NCBI GenBank assembly: GCA_025774615.1
Contig: JALGVQ010000047.1
Coordinates: 1 to 15,309 of the forward strand
Source: a bacterium
GTDB taxonomy: Bacteria; Blakebacterota; Blakebacteria; Blakebacterales; Blakebacteraceae
Direction of reading: 5' to 3'
DNA length: 15,309 nt
The notes beneath the pieces were generated by a model that did no database searches, was not told the origin of the DNA, and saw only the letters and a program-made list of their open reading frames with translations. Numbering within the stretch: position 1 is the first letter of the stretch; every line of letters begins with the position of its first letter. Positions 1,874-13,896 of this stretch are shown here, piece after piece. The translations under genes were made by a program, and so were the position numbers.

Positions 1874-4549
1874 ATGGCAGAAAAGCACGTCTATTCATTC
1901 GGCGCTGGTAAAGCGGATGGTACCAGCAAAATGAAGGATCTATTGGGAGGCAAGGGTGCAAACCTGGCCGAGATGTCCCGCATCCGTATTCCCGTTCCAC
2001 CGGGCTTCACGATCACCACTGAGGTCTGCAACTACTACTCCAGCCACAACAGCAAGTATCCGGCCGGACTGACGGGTCAGGTCAACACGGCCCTGAAGAA
2101 GGCCGAGACGATCATGGGAGCGAAGTTCGCCGACAAGACCGATCCGCTCCTCTTTTCGGTCCGCTCGGGCGCGAAGTTCAGCATGCCGGGTATGATGGAC
2201 ACGGTTCTGAACCTTGGACTGAATGACAGGAACATCAAGGCGTTCGCGATGGCCGCCGGTGGAGATGAGCGGTTCGCGTGGGATTGCTACCGTCGCCTGA
2301 TCCAGATGTACGGTGACGTGGTACTCGAGGTGGAGAAGGAAGCCTTCGACCACATCATCGAGACCGCCAAGAAGAAGCGGAAGGTGAAGAACGATCTCGA
2401 TCTCACCGCCGCCGACTGGAAAGAGATCGTCAAGCTGTTCAAGGCGATCATCCGCACGAAGACCGGTAAGGCCTTCCCCCAGGATCCGCAGAAGCAGCTG
2501 TGGGGAGCGCTCGGCGCGGTATTCAGCTCCTGGAACAACGAACGCGCCATCACCTACCGGAACCTCAACAACATCCCTCACGATCTCGGGACCGCCGTGA
2601 ACGTCCAGGCTATGGTCTACGGCAACCTGGGTGAGGGTTCGGCTACCGGAGTGGCGTTCACTCGTGACGCCGCCACCGGCGAGAAGGTCTTCTACGGCGA
2701 GTGGCTCCCCAATGCCCAGGGTGAAGACGTGGTCGCGGGTATCCGCACACCGATGCCGCTCAGGAAGGGCAAGAAGGGCAGTCTCCCCTCCCTGCAGGAG
2801 CAGATGCCGAAGATCTACAAGCAGCTGGACGACATCCGGCACAAACTGGAAGCGCACTACAAGGACATCCAGGACATCGAGTTCACGATCCAGAATAACC
2901 GCCTCTGGATGCTCCAGACCCGGACGGGGAAGCGTACCTCCCAGGCCGCGGTGAGGATCGCAGTCGAGATGGTGAAGGAAGGCCTCATCGACAAGGAAGA
3001 GGCGGTCCGCCGGATCGATCCCGACCAGTTCGAACAGCTCTTCCACCCCTCGTTCGAGACCGGTGCCGTGAGAAAGGTGATCGCCAAAGGACTACCCGCC
3101 TCACCAGGCGCCGCAGTGGGCCAGGTCGTCTTCTCAGCCGCCGATGCCGAGAAGTGGGCCGCTGACGGTAAGACGATCATCCTGGTCCGGATCGAGACAA
3201 GCCCTGAGGACATCGGTGGCATGGATGCCGCAAAGGGTATTCTCACCGCTCGCGGCGGGATGACGAGCCACGCCGCAGTGGTCGCCCGCGGCATGGGCAA
3301 GTGCTGTGTCGCCGGGTGCGATGAGATCGAGGTCGACTACAAGAAGAAGCTCTTCAAGGCCGGCAAGAAGATGATCAAGCAGGGTACCTGGATCAGCCTC
3401 GACGGTTCGATCGGAGAGGTCATGGAGGGTAAGGTACCGACCCAGGATCCCGAGTTGAGCAAGGAATACTATGTGCTGATGAAGTGGGTCGACAAGATCC
3501 GCACCATGAAGGTCCGCACCAACGCCGACACCCCGGAGGATTCCCGTGTCGCTCGTGAGTTCGGCGCCGAGGGGATCGGCCTGACCCGGACCGAGCACAT
3601 GTTCTTCGAGGCGGAGAGGATCACCGCGGTACGCGAGATGATCCTGGCCACCACCGAGAAAGACCGGCGCAAGGCCCTCAAGAAGCTCCTTCCAATGCAG
3701 CGGAAAGACTTCGAAGGCATCTTCAAGGCGATGGACGGACTCCCCGTAACGATCCGCCTGCTCGACCCGCCGCTCCATGAGTTCCTTCCTCATGAAGAGG
3801 ATGCGCAGAAGGTGATCGCAAAGGAGCTGGGTGTGAAGCCGGCCGAGATAAAGCGGCTCACCGAATCGCTCTCGGAGTTCAACCCGATGCTCGGTCACCG
3901 CGGGTGCCGTCTCGCGATCACCTACCCGGAGATCTGCGAGATGCAGGCCCAGGCCATCATGGAAGCGGCCTGCAACATGCAGAAGAAGGGGATCAAGGTG
4001 TTCCCCGAGATCATGGTTCCGCTCATCGGTACCGAGCACGAGTTCAACATCCTGAAGGTGGTCATCGACCGGGTGGCCCAGCAGGTCATCGAGAAGAAGG
4101 GGATCAAGGTCAAATACATGGTCGGTACCATGATTGAGATCCCGCGCGCGTGTCTGGTCGCCGACAAGGTTGCCCAGCAGGCCGAGTTCTTCTCCTACGG
4201 CACCAACGACCTCACCCAGATGGCCTACGGCTACAGCCGGGACGACTCGGGCCGGTTCCTGGCCGATTACGTCGAGAACGGCATTCTGGCGGGCGACCCC
4301 TTCCAGAGTCTCGATCAAGAGGGTGTGGGACAGCTCGTGGAAACGGGTGTCAGACTCGGACGGAGTGTGAACCCGAAGCTGAAGATCGGTGTCTGTGGTG
4401 AGCATGGTGGTGACCCGGCCAGTGTGGGTTTCTTCCACAACGCGGGACTGGACTACGTGTCCTGTTCCCCTTACCGTGTACCGATCGCTCGCCTCGCGGC
4501 CGCCCAGGCGGTCCTTGAGGAGAAGCAGGCAAGCTGGCGGGACAAGTAA
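1874..4549 (+). CDS. ppdK: Pyruvate, phosphate dikinase
   Basis: PPDK interconverts ATP + Pi + pyruvate and AMP + PPi + PEP in the cytoplasm, serving gluconeogenesis or PPi-linked glycolysis. The 891-residue product has the full family layout. An N-terminal ATP-grasp domain contains GGKGANLAEM (25-34) and SVRSGAKFSMPGMMD (95-109). A swivelling domain carries the phosphorylated histidine in GGMTSHAAVVARG (His466). The C-terminal PEP/pyruvate TIM barrel has SYGTNDLTQM and a catalytic cysteine in IGVCGEHGG (Cys841). Length is normal (about 870-900). The frame stays open upstream to a TTG at 1784, but homologues begin near MAEKHVYSFG and AAAGGA precedes the ATG at 1874, so that start is preferred. 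It seems to be transcribed alone: a GC-rich hairpin follows, and parA starts 114 bases later. Confidence 0.96.
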   Translation: MAEKHVYSFGAGKADGTSKMKDLLGGKGANLAEMSRIRIPVPPGFTITTEVCNYYSSHNSKYPAGLTGQVNTALKKAETIMGAKFADKTDPLLFSVRSGAKFSMPGMMDTVLNLGLNDRNIKAFAMAAGGDERFAWDCYRRLIQMYGDVVLEVEKEAFDHIIETAKKKRKVKNDLDLTAADWKEIVKLFKAIIRTKTGKAFPQDPQKQLWGALGAVFSSWNNERAITYRNLNNIPHDLGTAVNVQAMVYGNLGEGSATGVAFTRDAATGEKVFYGEWLPNAQGEDVVAGIRTPMPLRKGKKGSLPSLQEQMPKIYKQLDDIRHKLEAHYKDIQDIEFTIQNNRLWMLQTRTGKRTSQAAVRIAVEMVKEGLIDKEEAVRRIDPDQFEQLFHPSFETGAVRKVIAKGLPASPGAAVGQVVFSAADAEKWAADGKTIILVRIETSPEDIGGMDAAKGILTARGGMTSHAAVVARGMGKCCVAGCDEIEVDYKKKLFKAGKKMIKQGTWISLDGSIGEVMEGKVPTQDPELSKEYYVLMKWVDKIRTMKVRTNADTPEDSRVAREFGAEGIGLTRTEHMFFEAERITAVREMILATTEKDRRKALKKLLPMQRKDFEGIFKAMDGLPVTIRLLDPPLHEFLPHEEDAQKVIAKELGVKPAEIKRLTESLSEFNPMLGHRGCRLAITYPEICEMQAQAIMEAACNMQKKGIKVFPEIMVPLIGTEHEFNILKVVIDRVAQQVIEKKGIKVKYMVGTMIEIPRACLVADKVAQQAEFFSYGTNDLTQMAYGYSRDDSGRFLADYVENGILAGDPFQSLDQEGVGQLVETGVRLGRSVNPKLKIGVCGEHGGDPASVGFFHNAGLDYVSCSPYRVPIARLAAAQAVLEEKQASWRDK

Positions 4550-4589
4550 GCAGACCGCCGGGTGCCGAACTGGTTGTACCATTCGCTTG

Positions 4590-4615
4590 CCCGGCGGGCC
4601 CCTCTGTCCGCCGGG
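4590..4615 (+). terminator. GC-rich hairpin after ppdK (weak terminator candidate)
   Basis: CCCGGCGG (4590-4597) and CCGCCGGG (4608-4615) form a perfect 8-bp stem around a 10-base loop. Only TGAGTTTCTC follows, not a true U-tract, so intrinsic termination would be weak. The same left arm can also pair with an identical CCGCCGGG at 4555-4562, giving two exclusive hairpins. It lies between ppdK and parA, where a transcription boundary is plausible. Confidence 0.4.
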
Positions 4616-4663
4616 TGAGTTTCTCATGAGGGTATTTCGGCCCCTCAGGGCTGGAAGGATCGT

Positions 4664-5449
4664 GTGAGCAGAGTAATCGCCATCGCGAACCAGAAGGGTG
4701 GAGTGGGTAAGACCACTACCGCCGTGAACGTATCCGCCTGCCTCGCGGAAGCGGGTCACAAAACCCTTCTGATCGATATCGATCCTCAGGCGAACGCCAC
4801 CTCAGGCCTTGGTGTGGACCCCAACGAAGTCGATTATTCCATCTATGAAGCCCTCATCGAGGAGATCTCGATAGAAGACGCGCTGATAAACACCATCGTG
4901 GAAGGGCTCGATCTCGTTCCGAGCCATATCCGGCTTACCGGAGCGGAACTCGAAATGGTGGCCATGATCGGCCGGGAGAAGAAGCTTCAACAGGCGATCG
5001 AGACGGTCCGGGGAGAGTACGAATACGTCCTCGTCGATTGCCCCCCGAGTCTCGGACTGCTTACCCTCAATACCCTGACCGCGGCCGATTCGATACTCAT
5101 CCCGATCCAGTGTGAGTATTACGCCCTCGAGGGACTTGGTAAGCTGCTGAACACGATCAGGCTCGTTCAGAAGCACCTGAACCCGAACCTCGACATCGAG
5201 GGTGTGCTCCTCACCATGTTCGACAGCCGCCTCAATCTGAGTAAACAGGTGGCTGAGGAAGCGTATCGCTATTTCAACGACAAGGTGTACAAGACCAAGA
5301 TCATGCGGAATGTCCGTCTGGGCGAAGCGCCCTCATTCGGCATGCCGATCATCCAGTACGACATCCTCTCGACCGGGGCTGAGAACTACATCAGCCTGAC
5401 CAAGGAGATCGTCGCCCATGTCGCGAAAGGCACTCGGAAAGGGTCTTGA
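4664..5449 (+). CDS. parA: Chromosome-partitioning ATPase ParA (Soj)
   Basis: ParA is a Walker-type ATPase that binds the nucleoid in its ATP form and moves ParB-parS complexes to segregate replicated origins. The 261-residue protein has the deviant Walker A KGGVGKTT (11-18), the A' motif [11 protein letters not shown] (about 36-46) and Walker [10 protein letters not shown] (121-129). It lacks the N-terminal HTH of plasmid type Ia ParA, and the size fits chromosomal Soj. Translation starts at a GTG (4664) with GGAAGGA just upstream; the conserved reading [12 protein letters not shown] begins directly after it. It overlaps parB by 32 bases, which implies coupled expression. Chromosomal parAB usually lies near oriC. 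Confidence 0.97.
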
Positions 5450-6320
5450 CGCTCTGATCCCGGGTGCCGGTGAAGATGCCGGGCCGGCATCGGAGGTCGA
5501 GACGAAAGCACGGCGCCCCGGAGATGCGGGTGTCGTCACCAGAATCCAGATCAAAAACATCAGGCCTAACCCCTTCCAGCCCCGGCAGGATTTCGACCGC
5601 GAAGCCCTCGAAGAACTCGCTGAGTCCATCAGACAGAAGGGTGTGCTTCAACCTGTCCTGGTCCGCGCGGCTGAAGATGGATACGAACTGGTTGCAGGAG
5701 AGCGGCGCGTGCGGGCGGCAAAACTGGCCGGTCTTACCAGGATCGCCGCGATCGTATACGAGGTGGAGGCCGATGAGGAAATGCTGGAACTCTCGATCAT
5801 CGAGAATGTCCAGCGGGAAGACCTGAATGCGATCGACACGGCGCTGGCGTACCGGAGACTGGCCGATGACTGCTCGCTCACCCAGGAGCAGATATCCGAG
5901 AGGGTAGGCAAGAGCAGGGCGGCTGTGACGAACAAGATACGGTTGCTCGGACTCCCGGCAGAAGTGCAGAAGAAGGTTCGTCAGGGAGAATTGAGTGAGG
6001 GACATGCCCGAGCGCTCCTCGCCCTGCCCACGAAGAAACAGCAGGTCGATCTGTCACGCAGGGCGATCAAACGGGGGCTTTCGGTGCGCGATGTTGAGCG
6101 GCTTGTGCGAAAGCTCACCGATGAGGTTGGCGGGGAGAAGAAGAAGGAGAAGAAGGAACTCACTCCCCGGCTTCAGGCGATTCTCGAGGAGATGCAGCGC
6201 GCCCTGGGAACAAAAATCACCCTCACCGGCTCTGAGAAGACGGGTACCCTGCGGATCGAGTATTATTCTTCGGACGACCTGACCCGGATCTGCGACAGAC
6301 TCGACGTCAAACTGGATTGA
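5418..6320 (+). CDS. parB: Chromosome-partitioning protein ParB (Spo0J)
   Basis: ParB is a CTP-dependent DNA clamp that loads at parS and spreads, acting with ParA in origin segregation. The 300-residue product starts with the Spo0J-like [16 protein letters not shown]. It has the ParB box NPFQPR (51-56), the CTP-binding GERRVRAA (94-101) and ENVQRED (129-135). An HTH lies around [18 protein letters not shown] (153-170). After a Lys/Glu-rich linker (about 229-238) comes a C-terminal dimerisation domain (about 240-300). The ATG at 5418 lies inside the end of parA. No match to the common parS palindrome (TGTTTCACGTGAAACA) was found in the window, so its site is elsewhere or divergent. Confidence 0.97.
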
Positions 6321-6377
6321 TGTGAGCAGCCAGCCGGAGTGTTTTTCAGACTGGCTACCAGGATAGAAAGGGAGCGC

Positions 6378-7202
6378 GTGCCGAGAAGACGCAACTGGAC
6401 CATCGTCTTCATTCCTGATGATGAGAGCGAACCCCGCCAGGTTCGCCTGAGTCGGTCCGCTATGCGTCTGCTCATGGTCCTGGTCATAACGGTCATCGTG
6501 ACCGCCGGGATCGGTGTGGCAACCTACTGGAAGGTGGCTTCCACCGCTCTTGAGACATCGAGGGTCAATGAGGAAAACGCAACGCTCAGGGGACAGATCG
6601 AGCAGGTGTGGGAACTCGAGCGATTGATGGCGGACATGCTCGAGACCGACTACAAGATCCGGACGCAGATGGGAATCGAGTTTCCTCAGGACTGGCCTGG
6701 ATACAACTACCAGCTCGGTCCCGGCACGGTCAGCGAACCGGGCGGGATGGTGCGCACTACCTCGGGTGAAAGCACCATGACCGGGCGTGAACAGAATGTA
6801 TCTGAGGAATCAGCCATTCTCTTCGCGTGGCCGGTGGTTCTGGGGTGGCCGACGGTTGAATTCGGCCAGGGCGAGGGAACGGCCGGTGGACCGCATACCG
6901 GACTCGATATCGCGGCAAGAACGAACACACCGATCCGTGCCGCCGCTGACGGAAGAGTTACCTTCGCGGGGATGGACGACCAGTACGGTTTCCTCTGCGA
7001 GATCGGGCACAACAACCGGCTGACAACACGGTATGGCCATTGCGTAAGATTGGTTGTTCGGGAAGAGCAACTGGTCAAAAAGGGTGAGATCATTGCATAT
7101 GTAGGAAGTACGGGGCGGGTCACTACAGGGCCGCACCTCCACTTCGAGGTTCAGAAGAACGGGCAACCTGTTGATCCCCGTTCCTACCTCCCCAAGATCT
7201 GA
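6378..7202 (+). CDS. Membrane-anchored M23 (LytM-type) metallopeptidase
   Basis: This is a predicted zinc endopeptidase acting on peptidoglycan peptides in the periplasm. From the GTG at 6378 it has 274 residues: a short basic N-terminus (MPRRRNWTIVFIPDD), one membrane segment (about 30-50), a coiled-coil-like part (about 55-95), a linker, and an M23 domain (about 150-272). The ligands and catalytic residues are intact: HTGLD (His173, Asp177), YGHC (His221) and HLHFE (His253, His255). An in-frame GTG at 6339 would add 13 residues, but AAAGGGAG lies before 6378 and homologues begin near this point. It is followed 10 bases later by a bactofilin gene. M23-bactofilin pairs are known to shape cells by local wall remodelling. 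It lies just downstream of parAB. Confidence 0.9.
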   Translation: MPRRRNWTIVFIPDDESEPRQVRLSRSAMRLLMVLVITVIVTAGIGVATYWKVASTALETSRVNEENATLRGQIEQVWELERLMADMLETDYKIRTQMGIEFPQDWPGYNYQLGPGTVSEPGGMVRTTSGESTMTGREQNVSEESAILFAWPVVLGWPTVEFGQGEGTAGGPHTGLDIAARTNTPIRAAADGRVTFAGMDDQYGFLCEIGHNNRLTTRYGHCVRLVVREEQLVKKGEIIAYVGSTGRVTTGPHLHFEVQKNGQPVDPRSYLPKI

Positions 7203-7212
7203 AAGGACGATC

Positions 7213-7647
7213 ATGTCGAAGAGCCTCACGGGCGAAGGAACTATGAATACTCTGGTTGGTCACGGTACGACACTTGATGGTTCACTGAATGTGTCGAGCA
7301 GTATGCGGGTTGATGGAAAGATCCTGGGGCAGATTACCTGCTCGGACAGCCTTCTGGTGGGCAAGACAGGTGTTGTCGAGGCCAGCGTCAAGGTCAAGAA
7401 CGCCACCATCGGGGGGAAGGTCATCGGAGATATCGAAGCAAGCGAAGTGGTGATCCTCGAAGGGAACAGCACCGTCATCGGCGATGTTACCACTAAAAAG
7501 CTCATTATCGAAGAGGGGGCAGTGCTCAACGGCACCTGTCACATGGGTGGTGAGACATCGGGCAAGACGGCCCGCAGGGAGGACACATCCGGGAGCCAGA
7601 CCGGTCTGCAGATCCCGTCGGCATCCAGTTCGGAGTCGTCAGAATAG
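7213..7647 (+). CDS. Bactofilin (polymer-forming cytoskeletal protein)
   Basis: Bactofilins polymerise without nucleotide into filaments under the membrane and recruit cell-wall enzymes or other partners. The 144-residue product has the central DUF583 right-handed beta-helix core, roughly residues 12-112. Its short repeating turns include SMRVDGKILGQITC, GVVEASVKVKNATIGGKV and GDIEASEVVILEG. A Ser/Gly-rich disordered tail follows (about 113-144). The ATG at 7213 follows AAAGGA at a good distance; the frame is open further upstream but overlaps the peptidase. It is probably cotranscribed with the M23 gene and is likely its scaffold. A hairpin directly after its stop suggests the operon ends here. 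Confidence 0.95.
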   Translation: MSKSLTGEGTMNTLVGHGTTLDGSLNVSSSMRVDGKILGQITCSDSLLVGKTGVVEASVKVKNATIGGKVIGDIEASEVVILEGNSTVIGDVTTKKLIIEEGAVLNGTCHMGGETSGKTARREDTSGSQTGLQIPSASSSESSE

Positions 7648-7648
7648 G

Positions 7649-7670
7649 CCGGGTGCTCACAGGCGCCCGG
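7649..7670 (+). terminator. Hairpin after the bactofilin gene
   Basis: CCGGGTGC (7649-7656) and GCGCCCGG (7663-7670) pair over 8 bp, with one G-U, around the loop TCACAG. It starts two bases after the stop codon. There is no run of T after it (TAGTGCCTC), so it resembles the ppdK hairpin: a stable stem without a U-tract. It may stop transcription with help from Rho, or protect the mRNA end. Confidence 0.45.
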
Positions 7671-7767
7671 TAGTGCCTCACGACTCCTCTGCCAGATCCC
7701 CTGGTTGATCTCCCAGCCCGATCACCGCGCTGTGATTGACGCACGGCGGTCGGTATCGCTGCATCAG

Positions 7768-7882
7768 GTTGTGGAGAACTGTGTTGATAACTTCACCGAT
7801 CAGGTGGATAACTCAGTATAATGTTGTGTAATATGGAGTTACGTGAGGTGTCTTAGTGAAGAGTTCACGAGTTATCCACAAC
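7768..7882. other. Cluster of DnaA-box-like sites (possible oriC element or DnaA-regulated promoter)
   Basis: Four 9-mers match the DnaA box TTATCCACA. Three lie on the minus strand with one mismatch each: TTCTCCACA (7770-7778), TTATCAACA (7782-7790) and TTATCCACC (7803-7811). One on the plus strand is perfect: TTATCCACA (7872-7880), inside the first codons of hflX. The first two are 12-base tandem units (7768-7779 and 7780-7791). The outer sites form a 12-base inverted repeat with 11 matches. Between them lies an AT-richer stretch (about 7811-7845). The gap from 7648 to 7855 has no gene. With parAB 1.5 kb away this could belong to oriC, but no dnaA or dnaN is in view and no clear DnaA-trio tract was found. 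Confidence 0.6.
7792..7822 (+). promoter_or_regulatory. hflX: Candidate hflX promoter overlapping a DnaA box
   Basis: A perfect -10 hexamer TATAAT (7817-7822) is preceded by TTCACC (7792-7797) with a 19-base spacer. The -35 match is modest. Transcription would start near 7829, about 27 bases before the hflX GTG. The DnaA-like box at 7803-7811 sits between -35 and -10, so DnaA binding would be expected to repress it. Confidence 0.5.
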
Positions 7883-9193
7883 ATTCCCCATAATACCAGA
7901 GAACGGGCGGTACTGGTCGGTGTCGATCTCGCGCGGGATGGGTCCGTCCCTGTCGAGGAGTCCCTCCTGGAACTGGCCCTGCTGGCCGATACAGCTGGAG
8001 CCGATGTGGTGGATGAGCTCGTCCAGAAGAGGGACCAGCTTGATCCGGCTCTCTTCGTGGGAAGTGGATTCGTCGACAGAGTGGGGCAGCGGGTAAGGGC
8101 CCTGGACGCGGACCTGGTAATCTTTGATGACGATCTGAGCCCGGCTCAGGTCCGCAATCTGGAAAAACAGATCGAAGCCAAGGTGGTCGACCGTTCCACA
8201 TTGATCCTCGATATCTTCGCCGAGCGGGCTCAGACGAAGGAAGCCAGAACGCAGGTCGAACTCGCCCAGCTCGAATATCTTCTGCCCAGACTCACCAGAG
8301 CATGGAGTCATCTCTCCCGACAGGAAGGGGGGATCGGCACACGAGGCCCCGGTGAGACACAGCTTGAGGTTGACCGGCGTCTCGTACGCACGCGGATCGC
8401 CGAATTGCAGAAGGAACTCGTTCAGATCGAGAAACAGCGGGAGACAAGACGGAAGGCACGAACAGAATTCTTTCAGATAACCCTCGTCGGCTATACAAAT
8501 GCCGGAAAATCAACTCTGCTCAACCGGCTCGCCGACTCAGATCTCTTTGTTGAGGACCGGCTCTTCGCGACGCTGGATACCGCTACCCGTTCGGTGGACC
8601 TCCCCGGCGGTCCCAGGGTACTTCTCACCGATACGGTCGGCTTCATCCGCAAGTTGCCGCCCGGGATCGTCGCATCGTTCCGCAGCAGTCTGGAAGAGGT
8701 CGTGGTCGCCGATCTCCTCCTGCATGTAGTCGATATGAGTCATCCCTGGTACGAAGATCACATCTCAAGCGCGAACACCATCCTCGATGATCTGGGGGTC
8801 CTGCACTATCCGACAGTGATGGCGTTCAACAAGGTCGATTGCGCGGATGAGGGATGTACCGGTCTCATCCGGTCATCGTATCCGGAGGCGGTCGACTTCA
8901 GCGCGAAGACCGGTGAAGGGATCGAGAACCTCATTTCTGCGCTGATCGAGAAGATCAGATCCCTGCAGGTCGTCGTCGATGTCGTGGTACCTCAGCAGCA
9001 TCCGGGGCTCGCGAACGTTGTACATGAACTGGGAAAGGTTCTGGATCGGGAGTACGATGAGCAGGCGGCCCGCTTCAGACTCAGAACTACCTCGGCCCGG
9101 TTCGGCTATCTTGCGGCGCTGCTGGGAGATATTCCCGGAGCCTCGGTCACTCTGGTCGAGGAATCGGCGGATGAGTCAGGGGAGGATCAATGA
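7856..9193 (+). CDS. hflX: GTPase HflX
   Basis: HflX is a ribosome-associated GTPase that splits stalled or heat-damaged 70S ribosomes. The 445-residue product has the HflX N-terminal domain with EARTQVELAQLEYLLPRL (129-146) and the glycine-rich GGIGTRGPGETQLEVDRR (158-175). The GTPase domain follows: G1 GYTNAGKST (212-220), G3 DTVGF (259-263), G4 NKVD (325-328) and G5 SAKTG (349-353). A short C-terminal domain ends in an acidic tail. The start is GTG at 7856 with GAGGTG upstream. It adds about 15 residues before the conserved RERAVLVGVDL, and no later start codon fits well. A perfect DnaA box lies in codons 6-9. It overlaps the next gene by four bases. Confidence 0.96.
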   Translation: MKSSRVIHNIPHNTRERAVLVGVDLARDGSVPVEESLLELALLADTAGADVVDELVQKRDQLDPALFVGSGFVDRVGQRVRALDADLVIFDDDLSPAQVRNLEKQIEAKVVDRSTLILDIFAERAQTKEARTQVELAQLEYLLPRLTRAWSHLSRQEGGIGTRGPGETQLEVDRRLVRTRIAELQKELVQIEKQRETRRKARTEFFQITLVGYTNAGKSTLLNRLADSDLFVEDRLFATLDTATRSVDLPGGPRVLLTDTVGFIRKLPPGIVASFRSSLEEVVVADLLLHVVDMSHPWYEDHISSANTILDDLGVLHYPTVMAFNKVDCADEGCTGLIRSSYPEAVDFSAKTGEGIENLISALIEKIRSLQVVVDVVVPQQHPGLANVVHELGKVLDREYDEQAARFRLRTTSARFGYLAALLGDIPGASVTLVEESADESGEDQ

Positions 9194-13477: not shown

Positions 13478-13896
13478 GTGTGCTCCAGCGGCCGGCCCTG
13501 GCATGGGGAGGCGTTATCCTCTGGGCGGGTGCAATCTGGTTCGGTTCCAGTCTGAACATCGGATCACAATCCCCACTGATGAAATTCGGTCCCGACAAGC
13601 TGGGACACTTTGTCGAGTTCAGCATTCTGGCCATGCTGGCGGCCAATGCCCTGATGACTCGACCACGGCTCTCTGCTACAGAGGCAGGACGGAGGAACGC
13701 CTGGAGGTTGGCGGTGATCATCACTGCCCTCTGGGGCGTTCTCGATGAGATCCATCAACTCTGGGTGCCGGCACGAACTTCCGACCCTTTCGATGCCGTT
13801 GCTGATATACTGGGCGGAATGGTCGGTGCCTGGCTGCTCCTTTACTGGATAAGGCCGGGCGATACCATCTCTATTGAAGTGGATGAGGAACCATGA
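13474..13896 (+). CDS. VanZ-family membrane protein
   Basis: This 140-residue integral membrane protein has about four transmembrane segments (about 9-27, 43-61, 78-94, 106-126). The family signature DKLGHFVEFSILA (41-53) lies in the second segment, DEIHQLWVPAR (91-101) follows the third, and DAVADILGG begins the fourth. VanZ-like proteins are widespread; VanZ gives low-level teicoplanin resistance in enterococci, but most relatives have no known role. Length is normal for a single-domain member. The ATG overlaps the PTS gene stop (ATGA), and its own stop overlaps hisS, so it is translated as part of that operon. It ends in a short acidic cytoplasmic or periplasmic tail. Confidence 0.9.
   Translation: MSVLQRPALAWGGVILWAGAIWFGSSLNIGSQSPLMKFGPDKLGHFVEFSILAMLAANALMTRPRLSATEAGRRNAWRLAVIITALWGVLDEIHQLWVPARTSDPFDAVADILGGMVGAWLLLYWIRPGDTISIEVDEEP

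Follow-up and report, generated by a model that had tools for sequence, protein, structure and literature searches.

The window analysed here is an entire contig (C11; 15,309 bp) and comes from a draft genome (G000) that totals 3.3 Mb in 324 contigs and is 82% complete. Four genomes in the collection represent the phylum: G000 itself, G001 from the same genus, G002 from another genus of the same family, and G003. The plus strand of the window carries, in order, genes for PPDK, ParA (4664..5449), ParB (5418..6320), an M23 peptidase (6339..7202) and a bactofilin (7213..7647), a cluster of DnaA boxes, hflX (7856..9193, GTG start; 50S ribosome-binding GTPase) and a gene for a DUF2520 protein. The sequence GAGGTG at 7845..7850 (plus strand) is the likely ribosome-binding site of hflX, and G001 has AAGGTG at the same place. 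A TATAAT at 7817..7822 (plus strand) could serve as the -10 element of hflX; it is not conserved in G001 or G002.

The parA, parB, M23 peptidase and bactofilin genes adjoin one another (4664-7647), and this arrangement is kept in G002 and partly in G001. The adjacency suggests that segregation is connected with the cytoskeleton of the cell envelope.

Between the bactofilin gene and hflX we found four DnaA boxes, taken as 9-mers that differ from TTATNCACA at no more than one position. Three lie on the minus strand: box 1, TTCTCCACA, with one mismatch (7770..7778); box 2, TTATCAACA (7782..7790), spaced 12 bp from box 1; and box 3, TTATCCACC (7803..7811), 21 bp from box 2. Box 4 is a perfect TTATCCACA on the plus strand (7872..7880). 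It lies exactly 90 bp from box 2 and would fall in codons 6-9 of hflX. In the outer arms (7768-7780 and 7870-7882), 12 of 13 positions are complementary; in the arms formed by boxes 3 and 4, 11 of 11 are. The rest of the 15.3-kb window contains only three further 9-mers with one mismatch or fewer, all beyond 10.3 kb. The AT content of the cluster is 59%, compared with ~42% for the window. AT content in the intergenic stretch peaks at 66% over 50 bp, which leaves the cluster without a strong unwinding tract; a 70% stretch sits elsewhere in the window. These findings agree with a preliminary description of the locus, which had reported one perfect and three single-mismatch boxes within 115 bases (7768-7882), the perfect one facing the other three, a 12-base tandem, an inverted repeat made by the outer pair, and an AT-richer stretch with TATAAT and no clear unwinding tract.

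The same description had judged such clustering unlikely to arise by chance, and our estimates bear this out. We sampled 144 kb of the same genome and found 0.36 boxes (one mismatch or none) per kb, with never more than two in a stretch of 115 bp. No 115-bp stretch had more than two boxes in 3 Mb of sequence simulated under an order-3 Markov model. At an expectation (lambda) of 0.041 per 115 bp, a given box has three more beside it with a probability of ~1e-5, and approximately 0.01 four-box clusters are expected by chance in the whole genome. Perfect boxes elsewhere in G000 numbered 11 (9 for the reversed pattern) and were mostly isolated; outside the window, only the perfect box on contig C158 had a second good tandem box nearby.

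The tandem spacings within the cluster are typical of DnaA boxes. We surveyed 145 genomes and collected 110 head-to-tail pairs of boxes. Spacings of 10-13 bp (47/110) and 19-23 bp (31/110) were common, and spacings of 14-18 bp (7 pairs) and 24-28 bp (4 pairs) were rare. Given this preference, the 12 and 21 bp found in the cluster are usual helical-phase spacings for a pair of DnaA boxes. Across the 145 genomes, start-to-start distances showed a clear helical periodicity, at about 11-12, 20-22 and 33 bp.

We found that the cluster is conserved. Three genomes were informative (G000, G001 and G002); G003 has no hflX, and its contig stops inside an atpI-like gene. A scan of named genomes for further family members gave three relatives and one weak match in Erwinia; the relatives are deposited as Candidatus Latescibacterota RS_11_2, Candidatus Zixiibacteriota CSMAG_1180 and 'bacterium Meg22_46_Bin_213'. 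Both G001 and G002 carry the cluster 5' of hflX, in the same place, order and orientation as in the window. In an alignment of the three genomes anchored on box 4 and made with no gaps, the distances from box 2 to box 3 (21 bp) and from box 2 to box 4 (90 bp) were exact in all three. Box 4 was invariant. Box 2 was identical in G001 and one base off in G002, where it reads TTATCCACA. Box 3 was weaker and variable (TTATTAAGA, a weak box, in G001; TTTTCCACC in G002), and box 1 was retained among the relatives only in G001 (as TTTTCCACA), being absent at that position in G002.

Conservation was concentrated in the boxes. Boxes 2 to 4 bound a gap-free core of 99 bp (7782..7880) that was found once per genome. 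Within it, 21/27 columns in the boxes were identical in the three genomes, compared with 24/72 columns outside the boxes (Fisher p = 8e-5), and identity just beyond the core dropped to 4/28 and 6/31 columns. We searched the four genomes (~10 Mb) for the pattern TGTKGATAA-N66..96-TTATCMACA. It matched at one place each in G000, G001 and G002, always with a gap of 81 bp, and nowhere else; the reversed control pattern gave 0 matches. The inverted pair was the sole one with a spacing anywhere near that length in each of the three genomes. The preliminary description had held that loss of the boxes in close relatives would speak against any function. With boxes and exact spacings kept in two relatives, the cluster is probably functional.

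The gene to which the element is linked is hflX, not the bactofilin gene. In G002, whose HflX is 70% identical to that of the window, an atpI-like gene separates the bactofilin gene from the element, and box 4 lies ~150 bp from the hflX ATG. Because the element is still found at hflX despite this inserted gene, it appears to travel with hflX. The atpI-like (ATP-synthase-I-like) gene, at positions 4487-4891 of G002 contig C61, is absent from the corresponding part of the window (7213-7855) and from G001. Among 27 hflX loci from distant genomes, none had a perfect box in the hflX-locus stretch examined, indicating that the cluster is not a general feature of hflX.

We suggest that the cluster is a conserved, lineage-specific DnaA-binding module that lies outside oriC and is attached to hflX at its 5' end. 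We give this reading, drawn from sequence comparison, a probability of a little under 0.6. The boxes are clustered beyond chance, outside the replication origin and conserved, as in oriC-external DnaA-box clusters. The element probably couples hflX expression to DnaA, or titrates DnaA, or both. We infer that box 2 would be a strong site for DnaA, with cooperative binding at box 3 (and box 1), since boxes set head to tail at 21 and 12 bp share almost the same helical face. Box 4, which is perfect and faces the other way, might anchor a second DnaA across the AT-richer stretch of 60 bp, which would hold the hflX ribosome-binding site and probably the hflX promoter. Once occupied, and perhaps looped between its arms, the element could then reduce hflX transcription or set its timing in step with how much active DnaA is present; it may also titrate or hold some DnaA. 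A promoter and terminator scan of 7000-8500 gave nothing. With no consensus promoter and a TATAAT that is not conserved, control of an hflX promoter is conjectural. In G001, DnaA can be aligned along its entire length with solved bacterial DnaA structures (best match, 8btg), and two motifs of the DNA-binding domain, PRQ and FGGRDHTTV, are retained.

The cluster might instead be purely a site for DnaA titration or for the timing of initiation, unrelated to hflX and placed there merely because the intergenic gap was free. A second conserved pair of boxes is consistent with this possibility. A search for TTATC-N0..30-TTATCMACA gave seven places in the four genomes and none in the control, and four of the seven had a spacing of exactly 21 bp: the window, G000 contig C158 (5772-5801), G001 contig C515 (13867-13896) and G002 contig C69 (923-952). 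The pair outside the window lies downstream of gyrA-rex in G000 and G001 and of gyrA in G002, ~10 kb from dnaA, and precedes a gene whose Omp85-like product contains polymer-forming-type repeats. On C515, the 50-bp stretch with the highest AT content (78%, 13838-13887) overlaps the start of this pair.

Known systems also lend the titration reading some weight. B. subtilis has six oriC-external DnaA-box clusters that act on initiation, and their joint removal causes early initiation (Okumura et al. 2012, as cited in PMC5295017). The core of E. coli DARS, like the cluster, has one box opposed to two others, at fixed spacing (PMC5742627). Elements of this kind can thus act on initiation. However, the element in the window keeps to the 5' end of hflX when gene order changes, and four boxes are few for titration. 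We therefore regard a role in titration or timing alone as rather unlikely, although it is the best of the alternatives to a DnaA-binding module tied to hflX.

Much less probable is a structured RNA leader of hflX, in which the inverted arms would form a stem rather than DnaA sites. The arms are a fixed distance apart, and the G000 RNA folds better than its shuffled versions (z = -2.4). However, the complementary strand of G000 folds equally well, and the z-scores for G001 (+1.2) and G002 (-1.1) do not follow that of G000. The consensus fold from the three sequences was weak, with no favourable covariation term, and there was no Rfam match. In addition, the arms match DnaA boxes, and the identity of box 2 is kept beyond what pairing would need. 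We rejected the RNA leader on the lack of a conserved fold or of compensatory changes among the three sequences, and of an Rfam match.

The 9-mers could also be the site of another regulator, or an unusual promoter that happens to resemble DnaA boxes, with TTGATA (7784-7789) and GATAAC (7807-7812) 17 bp apart. The 21-bp spacing does yield a 17-bp spacer from TTGATA or TGGATA to GATAAN at both conserved loci. However, the -10-like hexamer is variable and does not end in T, and the opposite-facing box 4 is left unexplained. Moreover, it is the exact DnaA consensus that is matched, and the 9-mers of the cluster also occur upstream of dnaA in G001. This reading is highly improbable.

The preliminary description had offered two readings, a DnaA-controlled element or a segment of oriC. 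The first is supported, with boxes and spacings kept in two relatives. The second is not, as the family has a canonical origin locus elsewhere. On contig C515 of G001, the order is gidB, three parS sites (two of them perfect), yidC, yidD, rnpA, dnaA, dnaN, recF, gyrB, gyrA and rex (names read from translations; DnaA and Rex also by profile). The genes diverge at dnaA, three DnaA boxes lie upstream of it, the gap between dnaA and dnaN is 58% AT, and cumulative skew has a local minimum at this locus. The preliminary description had named a skew minimum and denser boxes beside dnaA elsewhere as evidence against an origin at the cluster.

In favour of an origin, the cluster is AT-richer than its surroundings, parAB is near, and dnaA was not found in the G000 assembly. 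However, both flanks of the dnaA locus are present in G000 on other contigs, yidC-parS-gidB on C184 and gyrB-gyrA-rex on C158, and the missing dnaA is best explained by a gap in the assembly. The window has neither dnaA nor dnaN, as the preliminary description had noted, and also no rnpA, gyrB or parS; such genes and sites are on C515 of G001 and on C184 and C158 of G000. The proximity of parAB had been taken to support an origin, but parS is not near this parAB. Clusters of parS (TGTTTCACGTGAAACA, 47 bp apart) lie between yidC and gidB at 870-979 of C515 in G001 and 1073-1135 of C184 in G000, with parAB on a different contig; parS was not found in G002 or G003.

Skew within the window climbs steadily through the cluster, with no turning point at 7.8 kb (the curve covers the window only, a whole-genome curve being impossible on a draft of 324 contigs), and the genes flanking the cluster run in the same direction. 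Of the features of a chromosomal oriC, the cluster has the DnaA boxes; an AT-rich unwinding element, a skew minimum and the gene neighbourhood of an origin were not found there. With gene neighbourhood, skew and parS all against it, we rejected the origin reading, whether of a whole origin or of part of one, as the least probable of all. We caution that a box cluster and parAB alone do not justify calling an origin when a draft genome misses dnaA.

Most of what is known about DnaA-box clusters outside oriC comes from E. coli and B. subtilis. A cluster at hflX in uncultured bacteria, kept with base-pair precision, would add a lineage that has received little study to those with DnaA-based control, and its position suggests that replication control and ribosome rescue are connected. 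Among the papers searched, the only one to name both hflX and DnaA boxes concerns a Mycoplasma plasmid, and its abstract is unrelated. More speculatively, and we think this doubtful, the two 21-bp modules (one at hflX beside parAB and bactofilin, the other downstream of gyrA or gyrA-rex) might form a dedicated DnaA-responsive circuit of this candidate phylum, a switch for the cell cycle or for starvation that would couple initiator activity both to an envelope gene and to HflX-mediated ribosome rescue.

The cluster resembles several known systems in part. It shares box words and the 12-bp tandem spacing with a canonical bacterial oriC of the dnaA-dnaN type. Unlike such an origin, it has no dnaA or dnaN, no strong unwinding tract and no skew minimum, and the lineage has an oriC of that type elsewhere. 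As at DnaA-regulated promoters (E. coli uvrB, PMC6015884; autoregulated dnaA), boxes flank the region of a gene start, although here the hflX promoter is only putative. E. coli DARS1, DARS2 and datA (PMC5742627) are likewise clusters away from oriC, and the DARS core shares the arrangement of one box opposite two at fixed spacing. In contrast to these, boxes 3 and 4 are 69 bp apart, and the lineage is different. The cluster differs from the B. subtilis clusters in its inverted box, its rigid 90-bp geometry and its position at hflX, and the loci are not homologous. Like them, however, it is a small intergenic cluster of boxes outside the origin, and the genus of the window has at least two.
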